Below, one piece after another: positions 23,809-30,432 of a stretch of DNA of 64,000 bases (its first letter is position 1; each line of letters opens with the position of its first letter). The stretch lies in contig NZ_PEIG01000004.1 in assembly GCF_002749975.1 (NCBI RefSeq), positions 124,001-188,000 on the forward strand, read 5' to 3'. The translations under genes and the position numbers were made by a program. A model generated the notes under the pieces. It saw nothing but the letters and a program-made list of their open reading frames with translations, searched no databases and was not told the origin of the DNA. This DNA is from Gloeocapsopsis sp. IPPAS B-1203. Its GTDB lineage: Bacteria > Cyanobacteriota > Cyanobacteriia > Cyanobacteriales > Chroococcidiopsidaceae.

Positions 23809-25015
23809 ATGGCATACAGTAAAGGTGTAGCACAATTAGGATTATTTAGTGCAAGCATCTTGACATTCTTTTGTACTACTGCAATACCAGAAAAGTACTA
23901 GCTGAAGATAGTCTAAGCACAAATAATTTAACTAATTTAGAGACAAGCGATCGCTTAGACAATTTGAAGTTGCACACTTCTCAGGAATTGAAATTAGAGA
24001 AGAATATCGCAACAGTATTAGTTAATCAGTCTGTTAATGAAAATGACTTTACGACTACAGAAGTCGATAGCTCAAAGTTCAATGACAGCAACGTGAATAA
24101 TAAATACCAAATTACATTAAGTACAAATTCTCAGCAAATAGAAGTTTCTCGCAATGCAGTAGATTTGTTGGCAGAAAATAGTTTAGAAAAGCAGTTCTTG
24201 ATAGGTAAACTTGGTTTAGATACACTTTGTCGTGCTTTTCCGTTAAATTCACGCTGTACCGACTACCAAACCTCAGAACAACAAGCACAACGGTCTATAT
24301 AACTCAGACAACGCTTATCACCATCAGAAGTAGAACGACAAAACTTAGAAACACGCTTATTAGAAAGATTAGCAGTTGCATCAGAAGCACCTGTGCGGAG
24401 TAGTTTTGCACTAGGAGCTAAAGTGAGTGCTTTAGGTGTTGGTCTTGAGGGTATTGGTGCAATTTCACCAATTTTAATGGCAGAGTAGGATTTAATTATT
24501 TGGGATTCAGTAGTGGTTTTACACAAAATGAGATTGATTACGACGGTGATTTACAACTACTAAACGCTACTGGAATGCTTGATTGGTTTCCTTCAAGTAC
24601 AAGTGGTTTTCGAGTGACTGGTGGTGTAGTCTATCAAAACAATCGAGTTGATGCGATCGCGCGTCCGGCTGAAGTCTTAGAAATTGGTGGTATTGAATTT
24701 CCGCTAGCTGTAGTTGGTCAACTTGAGGGTTCATTAACATTTCCTAACACAATTGCACCTTATATTGGCATTGGTTACGGCAATCCGGTGAGACGCGGTA
24801 GTGCATTCAGCTTTAATATCGATTTAGGTGTTTTATTTCCAGGTTCACCACAAGCAGATTTGCAAGCAACAGGTCCAGGTGTAGATATTATTGGCGGAAT
24901 TCCTATATTAAATAATTTACTAGAGGATGCGATCGCCCAGGAAGAACAGGATATTGAAGATAACGTCAGTTGGCTTGGCGTGTATCCAGTACTTTCTATC
25001 GGAGTTTCTTATTAG
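23809..25015 (+). pseudogene. Broken outer-membrane beta-barrel protein gene
   Basis: An ATG at 23809 begins a signal peptide (MAYSKGVAQLGLF...). The frame ends at a TAG at 23899, although the next frame continues with VLAEDSLSTNN, as expected after a cleavage site. That frame has a nonsense TAA at 24300 and runs to 24488. From about 24476 a third frame takes over (FNGRVGFNYLGFSSGFTQNE) and runs to 25015, ending in the aromatic GVSY typical of outer-membrane barrels. The frames fit two single-base losses, one in a run of A near 23891 and one in AATTTT near 24476. This is decay or, less likely, sequencing error. Confidence 0.8.
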
Positions 25016-25071
25016 TTTTAATGACAAATTGGTGCTGGCAATTCTTTCAGCAATGATTACACCTGCTGTGC

Positions 25072-25462: not shown

Positions 25463-25540
25463 TTATGGTTGCGATGCTTGCACTTCGCTTCTCACAATCT
25501 CTACAAGTACAGCATTGATTTTATTAGAGTCTAGTTGACT
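25463..25540 (-). CDS. Possible 26-residue ORF overlapping the rhodopsin 3' end
   Basis: An ATG at 25540, with AAGGA seven bases upstream, opens a 26-codon frame reading MSQLDSNKINAVLVEIV and on to SEVQASQP. It overlaps the last codons of the rhodopsin gene in another frame. It may be a small coupled peptide or the start of a lost gene. There is no family match that I recognise. Confidence 0.25.
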   Translation of the reverse strand, partial: SQLDSNKINAVLVEIVRSEVQASQP

Positions 25541-26490
25541 CATTATGAGTGTTCCTTTCGATGTATTCTTGACTAGCACCACCACCGTCAATTTGTACTT
25601 GAATTGCTGGTTCGTAGCCTTCTGCTGCACTACGGATTTGTGCCACACTCGATAGCAATACGCCGTAAACTACTTTAGAGAAAATATCTGCCATCGTGTA
25701 GAGAAATTGTCGCGTTACGGCTGCCCACGCACCCCATGCGGGAAAAGCCTTCCAAGCCCAAGGTACCAAGTAGGCTAAGGGATAAAGCGTCCAAGAAATC
25801 AAGATTAACCACCAAATTGTCCCCATGGTTTTATAGGCTTGGCGAGGTAAATTTTCACGTGATTTGAAGATCCAATTCCCCATCATATAGAGAATGTAAA
25901 CGTAGAAAACGGTACTTACCGCACCCCAAAAGAGAAACCAACCAGTGTTTGTAATTTCAAAGTATTGTCCGATATATCCGGTGTAAATCATTAATAAACC
26001 AGCAGTGATGAAGCGAAACCGCAGCTTGCGGAAACGTCCTGGCGTGACATCAATCACAAATAACATCTGAGTTAGCAAACATGGTACATCAATTGACCAA
26101 TTAAGGTAACGATAACCATTCGAGAACGTGCTTTCTGTAATATCTGCCTGCTGTACCAACACCCAGCCCCCAAACTGTTCCATCAAAGGCAAATGCTGAC
26201 AGCCACTCTACTAGTTGCAAACCTAGAATTAAGAAAGCTGACACCATGACGACAGCAGATAGCGTCGATGATGGTTGAAATCGCGGCAACGAGCGACTGT
26301 TAGTTGTAATAAAGTATACAAACCCTACTGCCATCACACTCACACCAAGTGTTAATAAATGCGATATTAATTGGTGCTGTACTGGCGAGTAAGTGAGTAA
26401 GTTTTCCATAATCGTACCTTCTGGTACGACTACAGTCTGTGCTATTAAATTTTGTATAAAGGAAGTTGTCAGCACTCCTAAATCAAACAT
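25524..26490 (-). pseudogene. Microbial rhodopsin with NDQ motif (sodium-pump type), frameshifted
   Basis: Two overlapping frames, 26490-26101 and 26192-25524, together encode one seven-helix rhodopsin. The first holds helices A and B (SHLLTLGVSVMAVGFVYF; TLSAVVMVSAFLILG). The second holds helices C-G. Helix C reads NGYRYLNWSIDVPCLLTQ, with N at 26100-26102, D at 26088-26090 and Q at 26067-26069. This is the NDQ spacing (4 and 7) of the sodium pump KR2. The retinal lysine is in ADIFSKVVYG (codon 25674-25676). Removing one base from the run of five C (plus strand) at 26167-26171 joins the frames as ...FDGTVWGWVLVQQAD. It is therefore broken by one base, by mutation, slippage or a sequencing error. 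No retinal-synthesis gene is nearby. Confidence 0.9.
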
Positions 26491-26820: not shown

Positions 26821-27864
26821 TTAACTTGCGAATAGAACTTGATGTAGCAAATCTCGATGAATGGTTGCTCGATCTACTAAAGATTGAATTTGATCAGGAG
26901 TAAGAGAATCACCGTTTGCATAATGTTCAAGCAATGTATTATAAATTACATGATATTTATCAGGAATTTCAGTTAAATTCCATCCTGGCATATCAAGTTC
27001 TGCCATCAATTTACTCACTTTAGGATCGTAACTTAAGGCAAAACAGCGACATCCTTCAGCCGCAGCCATAATTAAACTGTGAAGGCGCATACCGATCGCC
27101 ATTTCAACACCTCGAAATACACCTTTTAAAGCTTTAGGATCTTGCAAAGACAAAATTTTATGAACTCCAGGAAGTTGCGGTGCGATCGCTTCAGCAATGG
27201 CTAAATCTTGACTTTGTTGAAATGGCACAAGCAAAATACAAGTTTGTGTTGCTTTTTGAAAATCAACTAAAGCACGGGTGAGATTATTGAGGCGAGTTGA
27301 TGTTAATTCAGGATGCGATCGCAATGTGACTGCAACTCTAGGTGCAGGTAAATCCCATAACCCAGGTACAGGCGAAGCTTCTAACGCCCATACTGGATCA
27401 GGGGCGAGAGTACATGAAATTCCCCATTTAGACAACAAAGCCGCACTACCTCGATCGCGAACACTCACTGCGGTACACTTTTTAAAAGTCCGTCGTGCCA
27501 ATTGCTGTGTCATGTCGCGCTTAAGTGGACCAATTCCTTGCGCCCAAGCGATTGTTTTTAAGCCAAGTTGTTGTGCTGCAATCATCAAGCCGCCGTAATA
27601 CAAAGGGCTAATCGCACTCGTCACATCTTGCATCAAACTTCCACCACCCCAAATGAACGCATCCGACTTGCGCAAAGTTTGAAGTACGCTGAATAATCCC
27701 ATGCGATCGCACGCTTCCACATGATAGCGATCGCGCGTCTCCTGCGGATTACCCGAAAGTACAATTGGTGTCACATGATCTGGTAACATTTGCAAAAGTG
27801 TTGCTAATAAAGCCTCATCGCCACCATTGCCTTTACCATAGTATCCACACAAAACCGCCCGCAT
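26821..27864 (-). CDS. csaB: Polysaccharide pyruvyl transferase CsaB
   Basis: CsaB adds ketal-linked pyruvate to cell-wall-associated polysaccharide, which can anchor S-layer-type proteins. The product (347 residues from ATG 27864, reading MRAVLCGYYGKGNGGDEA) has the family's glycine-rich N-terminal motif, the central IWGGGSLMQDVTS, AWAQGIGPL, SVRDRGSA and the C-terminal IGMRLHSLIMAA with its conserved histidine. A GTG three codons upstream is an alternative start. In this window a secreted haemagglutinin-like protein lies about 11 kb away, but no direct link is shown. Confidence 0.93.
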   Translation of the reverse strand: MRAVLCGYYGKGNGGDEALLATLLQMLPDHVTPIVLSGNPQETRDRYHVEACDRMGLFSVLQTLRKSDAFIWGGGSLMQDVTSAISPLYYGGLMIAAQQLGLKTIAWAQGIGPLKRDMTQQLARRTFKKCTAVSVRDRGSAALLSKWGISCTLAPDPVWALEASPVPGLWDLPAPRVAVTLRSHPELTSTRLNNLTRALVDFQKATQTCILLVPFQQSQDLAIAEAIAPQLPGVHKILSLQDPKALKGVFRGVEMAIGMRLHSLIMAAAEGCRCFALSYDPKVSKLMAELDMPGWNLTEIPDKYHVIYNTLLEHYANGDSLTPDQIQSLVDRATIHRDLLHQVLFAS

Positions 27865-27990
27865 CTTGCCCACGTTATTACCTCAGATAACATAACAAAA
27901 ACTCTATCCGAGATGTGCCATTAATTGAATCTGAGCCTTACGATAAAAAAGCACCAATCAATTGCATACCCTCACCCCTCGCCCCTCATT

Positions 27991-29886: not shown

Positions 29887-30432
29887 ATGGAAACATTGGC
29901 AAAGTGGACAGTAGAAGATTACCACCGGATGATTGCATCTGGTATTTTAGACGATCGCCGCGTTGAATTGTTGGCGGAAGAAATTCACGAAATGACACCA
30001 GAAGCACCAATACACGCGTTTTGTGGAGGAAGCTTAGCTGATTATTTCCGCACCTGCCTCAATCGTCAAGCCTTAGTTCGCGAAGCCCGCCCCATTACAC
30101 TTGAAACTTCAGAACCAGAGCCAGATATTGCCATTGTACGGGGTTCTTGGAGCGATTACCGAGAGCGTCACCCTGGATCTGATGACATCTATCTGGTGGT
30201 AGAGATATCTAATTCAAGTTTAACCAAAGATTTAGAACAAAAGCAGCCCATATATGCAGCAGCAGGAATTTAAGAGTATTGGATATTAGATCTTACTACG
30301 CTACAGCTAATTGTGTTTCGCGATCCTCAAGAAAACGAGTATCAATCGCGGCAAGACATTAAAACTGGAATAGTCTCTCCATTAGCGTTTCCAGAGATTA
30401 CTATATCAATTGAGCAATTATTTTCGGTTTAA
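29887..30432 (+). pseudogene. Uma2 family gene interrupted by a stop codon
   Basis: The frame starting at ATG 29887 encodes a Uma2 protein (VEDYHRMIASGILDDRRVEL; SEPEPDIAIVRGSW; IYLVVEISNSS) but meets TAA at 30271-30273. The same frame continues with EYWILDLTTLQLIVFRDP and on to TAA at 30430-30432. The stop probably replaced CAA in the common AGIQEYW, so a single substitution inactivated it. The catalytic residues precede the stop, so a truncated product of 128 residues could still be made. Its 3' end overlaps the next gene by four bases. Confidence 0.85.

Follow-up and report, generated by a model that had tools for sequence, protein, structure and literature searches.

What kind of rhodopsin is encoded by a cyanobacterial gene whose coding sequence is spread over two reading frames, and does the interruption record the loss of a protein that related strains have kept? 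This question is raised by a microbial rhodopsin gene in a 64,000-nucleotide stretch of DNA from Gloeocapsopsis sp. IPPAS B-1203 (the window; its genome is designated G000), the features of which are listed in Table 1. The locus probably represents a light-driven sodium pump of NDQ Subgroup 1 that was inherited vertically and has recently been disrupted. Frame A begins with an ATG at 26490, a few bases downstream of a GAGG motif, and frame B is open from a TTG at 26192, with homology starting near 26,140. The two frames align with residues 15–118 and 119–322 of the intact orthologue P0001 without overlap and with 93% identity each, and they are offset by one net base, which bears out the broken frame implied when the preliminary description spoke of a frame-corrected protein. 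The start codon at the homologous place is ATG in Gloeocapsopsis crepidinum (G001), a member of the same genus, and GTG in G002, G004, and G010; in the latter three genomes the seven-helix frame, interrupted in the window copy, is open. A programmed frame shift was considered and is thought unlikely because the frames of the intact relatives run through without a break. Two promoter-like matches were counted, below the 4.1 expected from shuffled sequence, and no promoter is claimed.

Table 1. Coordinates of the rhodopsin gene, its two frames, the codons of its key residues, and the upstream neighbour in the window
Feature	Position	Strand	Basis
NDQ rhodopsin gene with frame shift in the B–C helix loop near 26,140	25524..26490	-	two adjoining frames compared with intact P0001
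Frame A: N-terminus, helices A and B, 129 aa; out-of-frame stop at end	26101..26490	-	
Frame B: helices C–G, NDQ motif, retinal lysine, 222 aa	25524..26192	-	
Asn equivalent to KR2 N112, codon AAT	26100..26102	-	alignment with KR2
Asp equivalent to KR2 D116, codon GAT	26088..26090	-	alignment with KR2
Gln equivalent to KR2 Q123, codon CAG	26067..26069	-	alignment with KR2
Helix-G Asp equivalent to KR2 D251, codon GAT	25686..25688	-	alignment with KR2
Retinal-binding Lys equivalent to KR2 K255, codon AAA	25674..25676	-	alignment with KR2
Polysaccharide pyruvyl transferase, upstream neighbour; conserved landmark next to the rhodopsin in six genomes	26821..27873	-	

The Asn, Asp, and Gln residues of helix C are separated by 4 and 7 positions, and helix G contains both the retinal lysine and the second counterion aspartate, exactly as had been proposed from the sequence at the outset. 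Frame B matches the Pfam Bac_rhodopsin family with 104.9 bits (E 5.6e-30), and frame A scores 20.8 bits (E 3e-4), which by itself is under the 24.6-bit cut-off. The best solved matches of frame B are chain 8jh0, IaNaR by its entry title (2.8e-49), followed by KR2 chains from 3.7e-45; for P0001 they are IaNaR (8.1e-67) and KR2 (4e-62), with ClR at 5.5e-57. Most of the KR2-like text named in the preliminary description was recovered, LSAVVMVSAFL in frame A, and TGYIGQ and LISWTLYP, together with RYLNWSIDVPCLLTQ, in frame B; the helix-G region, however, had been given as ADxSSKVxYG and reads ADIFSKVVYG. The assignment of the window gene to the NDQ (sodium-pump) kind of microbial rhodopsin is confirmed at the level of sequence.

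A search of 388 genomes of the order with P0001 found matches in 24, half of which were of the NDQ type, defined by at least 48% identity to P0001 with remnants included (G000, G001, G002, G003, G004, G009, G010, G014, G248, G277, G336, and G357), and the other 12 showed 26–31% identity. A phylum-wide sample of 386 genomes gave 11 with a match, three of which were of the NDQ type (G000, G001, and G277), none of them additional to the order-level set. A scan of GTDB contigs returned seven loci, six from cyanobacteria (two of these from G. crepidinum) and one from Chloroflexota (Bellilinea); a plasmid search gave three records at 24.6–26.4% identity, and no relative turned up when viral contigs were scanned with the Bellilinea protein. 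In G000, G001, G002, G004, G010, and G014, the gene adjoins a common polysaccharide pyruvyl transferase, and the genes further out on that side are also shared; the opposite flank is common to G000, G001, and G002 only (within 20 kb). The copies in G357, G248, G336, Vasconcelosia, and Phormidium tanganyikae lie in neighbourhoods that are not shared. Based on the common neighbourhood in six genomes, the gene of the window group was therefore most likely inherited from the common ancestor of two genera. Elsewhere in the order-level set, G277 contains an open-frame NDQ rhodopsin (L044; G277:C5:301388-302176) with Gly in place of KR2 D251 and Asn in place of H30; as a pump without the second counterion it would be odd, or it would be a decaying gene.

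The copy in G. crepidinum contains a TAA in helix A, and that in G014 has no match for its first third and carries two stops and one frame change; both differ from the frame shift in the window. Because these two genomes carry other lesions, loss is regarded as common in the group, and separate losses of an inherited sodium-pump gene appear to have taken place in related species. Among the three full-length copies (G002, G004, and G010), dN/dS values of 0.032, 0.040, and 0.044 were obtained with a Nei–Gojobori script, excluding stop codons and the rhodopsin codons before P0001 position 18, and the same three pairs gave 0.118–0.136 for the transferase, 0.059–0.085 for HisA, and 0.034–0.041 for a DUF3593 protein. 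The intact pump is under strong purifying selection, tighter than that on the transferase and HisA and equal to that on the DUF3593 protein. Between G000 and G001, the rhodopsin value was 0.147 versus 0.152 for the transferase, 0.093 for HisA, and 0.161 for the DUF3593 protein; being near those of its neighbours, it makes the lesions in G000 and G001 look recent, and no relaxation of selection can be claimed from it.

A sequencing or assembly error, under which the strain would possess a complete and working NDQ sodium pump, is unlikely but is the strongest of the alternatives. The two frames are separated by one net base, the remainder of the window protein is 90–92% identical to the three intact copies, and its dN/dS relative to G. 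crepidinum is no higher than that of two of the three neighbouring genes. Against this, the nearest relative, G. crepidinum, is broken by a different lesion and G014 by a third kind, and the window genome is rated 99.91% complete. Furthermore, when 16 ORFs of G002 (at least 150 aa and at least 80% covered) were compared with the window, only the rhodopsin changed frame and one other contained a stop; a 17th, partial in that comparison, changes frame in G000 and is intact in G001. We infer that the lesion in the window is a real mutation, and a copy disrupted in this way would yield no working pump.

The partial and the stop-bearing ORF of this comparison are the two other genes in the vicinity that are broken in G000. 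The convergent neighbour of the rhodopsin gene (window 23865-25018, plus strand) occupies two frames with stops and is intact in G001; its counterpart in G002 is a 402-aa protein with no Pfam match. A further gene (window 29887-30429, plus strand), which presumably belongs to the Uma2 family, is interrupted by a stop in both the window and G010 and has none in G001 and G014, and in G004 it was matched by a 40-residue piece only. These two genes fit local gene decay, but local errors could also explain them. Rhodopsins of other types are split or stop-bearing in the same family (L017/L029 in G006, L018/L030 in G011, L027 in G013, and L021 in G018), G011 and G018 being incomplete genomes (73% and 65%); rhodopsin decay in the family may for this reason extend beyond sodium pumps. 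Two metagenome-assembled genomes contain NDQ rhodopsins with damage of their own: in Phormidium tanganyikae (L064), helix A contains a stop and helix C is garbled, and in Rivularia sp. MS3 (L068), the frame changes near the N-terminus.

What the intact form would do can be judged from the residues that have been retained. An alignment with KR2 shows that E11, H30, S64, V67, S70, Q78, R109, N112, D116, Q123, E160, R243, D251, S254, and K255 are conserved in the window protein. The O-state sodium site (Ser70, Val67, Asn112, and Asp116) and the Ser64/Gln123 gate, with positions as in PMC7195465, are thus preserved, and the window protein shares these residues, the NDQ motif, and the Asp251/Lys255 pair with both KR2 and IaNaR. 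It differs from both in overall identity (44–46%), in a longer B–C loop, and in its interrupted frame, and from KR2 in having Ser for Asn61, Ile for Leu74, Ser for Asp102, Phe for Ser253, and Ser for Gly263. Ile at position 74 agrees with the Leu or Ile that characterizes Subgroup 1, to which KR2 belongs (PMC11006869). Within the window group, Ser occupies position 61, and Ser or Thr is found at both 102 and 263. Position 253 is Phe in all 10 rows of the window group, broken copies included, versus Thr or Ser in the other NDQ rows; it may matter because a change there in one flavobacterial pump is listed with a functional effect in a review (PMC10608830).

By homology with KR2, the helix-G lysine of the intact protein would be the site of retinal binding, and isomerization of the retinal by light would transfer the Schiff-base proton to the helix-C aspartate. 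Sodium could then enter from the cytoplasm through the Ser64/Gln123 gate, bind transiently at Ser70, Asn112, and Asp116, and be released outward upon return of the proton. The window genome contains RPE65-family genes at three places (four matches), and one of them, compared with solved structures, is closest to apocarotenoid-15,15'-oxygenase 2biw (E 1.9e-71). The search for a carotenoid 15,15'-oxygenase suggested in the preliminary description thus yields an apocarotenoid-15,15'-oxygenase homologue, and the strain can probably make retinal. It is unlikely, yet less so than the possibilities discussed below, that the ion moved in the cell by intact members of the clade is not sodium but the proton or potassium. 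According to PMC7195465, KR2 itself pumps protons unless sodium is in large excess, and the filter positions have changed from N61 to Ser and from G263 to Ser or Thr, with Phe at 253 throughout the window group. However, the sodium-site and gate residues are kept, and IaNaR, a sodium pump by its PDB title, likewise has Ser at 61, with Thr at 263.

Two trees were used to place the proteins. NDQ proteins and ClR form one clade relative to cyanobacterial xanthorhodopsin-like proteins, with support of 100/99 in a 29-row tree and 100/100 in a 24-row tree, and the window gene lies within that clade, as the preliminary description had required of an NDQ rhodopsin. Together with the IaNaR and KR2 structure matches and the conserved KR2 positions, this placement upholds the original view that the resemblance to KR2 extends beyond the motif. 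In the 29-row tree, the window gene clusters with further sequences from cyanobacteria (support 90/90, 11 rows), and in the 24-row tree, a similar cyanobacterial set is unseparated from KR2, IaNaR, and ClR (12 rows at 81/91). The 29-row tree used the engineered ClR chain 5g2c, which has Asp in the motif, and the 24-row tree used the wild-type letter of ClR as for 5fjg and omitted the ASR-like row, L013, L072, the P. tanganyikae row, and the G014 fragment; L070 has no row in the locus set, its pattern matching no frame. An AlphaFold model of P0001 (mean pLDDT 81.9, from an 11-sequence alignment) gave KR2 as its first Foldseek match (E 5.9e-19), with a TM-score of 0.90 by target length. The suggestion that the gene came from marine Bacteroidetes finds no support: the two references of flavobacterial type, 44–46% identical to the window protein, fall on their own branch (100/100), and donors were sparsely sampled, the non-cyanobacterial NDQ/ClR rows being only Bellilinea, KR2, IaNaR, and ClR.

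It is highly improbable that the gene encodes a chloride pump, or a proton pump, of a kind known from cyanobacteria (ClR, XLR, CyR, or CyHR). Both trees place ClR within the NDQ set, and ClR chains come near the KR2 score against the second-group protein P0004 described below and exceed KR2 against L066 of the same group. Helix C of the window protein nevertheless reads N-D-Q, with Asp replacing the Thr of the N-T-Q of wild-type ClR, and it lacks the D-T-E of cyanobacterial xanthorhodopsin-like proton pumps; moreover, KR2 outscores ClR against P0001. The ClR and XLR identities are ruled out by motif and tree, and for CyR and CyHR the comparison consists of two other cyanobacterial rhodopsins in the 29-row tree (the ASR-like protein of the window genome and L013 of G015), which are far from the window gene. 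Equally improbable is a split pump whose two chains, helices A–B and helices C–G, would assemble with retinal so that the break is not fatal, for which the good preservation of both pieces is the sole tested point in favour, bacteriorhodopsin cut in the same loop being able to reassemble from two pieces in vitro.

In addition to its broken copy of the window-group gene, G. crepidinum possesses a full-length NDQ rhodopsin, P0004, with Glu at the position of KR2 Leu74. Remnants of this second group occur in two other genomes of the family, 49 residues at 81.6% identity to P0004 in G003 and 59 residues at 78.0% in G009; in G003 the N-terminal and C-terminal ends are adjacent and the middle is absent, and the remnant in G009 carries a stop. 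The 19 family genomes (G000 to G018) thus contain three full-length and three broken copies of the first group and one full-length copy and two remnants of the second. With the 24-row set, a test of whether both cyanobacterial NDQ groups belong to a single clade gave p-AU 0.139, which neither establishes nor refutes a common origin. Two second-group NDQ rhodopsins (L022, G001:C74; and L066) begin with a long hydrophobic extension that ends near AQ and resembles a signal peptide. The window genome has one other rhodopsin (L001; G000:C14:137120-137794), which is intact, carries Pro where helix G would have Asp (IPFFSK), and is taken by us to resemble Anabaena sensory rhodopsin. In PMC11006869, which describes 219 NaR sequences below 90% identity, Glu at the Leu74 position marks NDQ Subgroup 2, that of ErNaR. 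The second rhodopsin of G. crepidinum and its kin share this extra Glu with ErNaR, a protein absent from the two trees; in contrast, the window gene, with Ile at the position, is a member of the other cyanobacterial group. Both published NDQ subgroups are represented in a single genus, and decayed copies of both are present in the family, which was less expected.

The sodium-pump type proposed for this cyanobacterium holds, and its claim to be notable is weakened by earlier reports. NaR accounts for 1 of 56 cyanobacterial rhodopsin genes in Hasegawa 2020 (PMC7541481) and for 6 of 102 in Hasegawa-Takano 2024 (PMC11528372), these being Na+-pump-clade rhodopsins like the one described here, and the authors of both papers regard cyanobacterial NaR as of non-cyanobacterial origin or acquired by horizontal transfer. 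Since cyanobacterial NaR genes are already in print in these sources, the window gene is a damaged example of a published protein group. Gloeocapsopsis is not named in the main text of PMC11528372, and the clade described here may be among the genes counted in the two papers. The literature search found no paper on parallel decay or side-by-side subgroups of cyanobacterial NDQ rhodopsins, none pairing Gloeocapsopsis with rhodopsin, and none joining rhodopsin, gene loss, cyanobacteria, and a Na+ pump. NDQ rhodopsins in cyanobacteria are already known, and what is added is their parallel decay and the occurrence of two subgroups side by side.

For the biology of these organisms, the disrupted gene points to a lineage in which a predicted light-driven sodium pump was retained and later damaged in the window strain and two relatives, which offers a test of the worth of such a pump beside chlorophyll. 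The window genome encodes one Sbt_1 family protein, which we take to be of the family of the SbtA sodium/bicarbonate transporter and which could be a user of the sodium gradient. For biophysical work on the cyanobacterial clade, the Phe at KR2 position 253 offers a simple target, and the occurrence of both intact and broken copies at a single chromosomal locus makes the value of the pump testable by growth.
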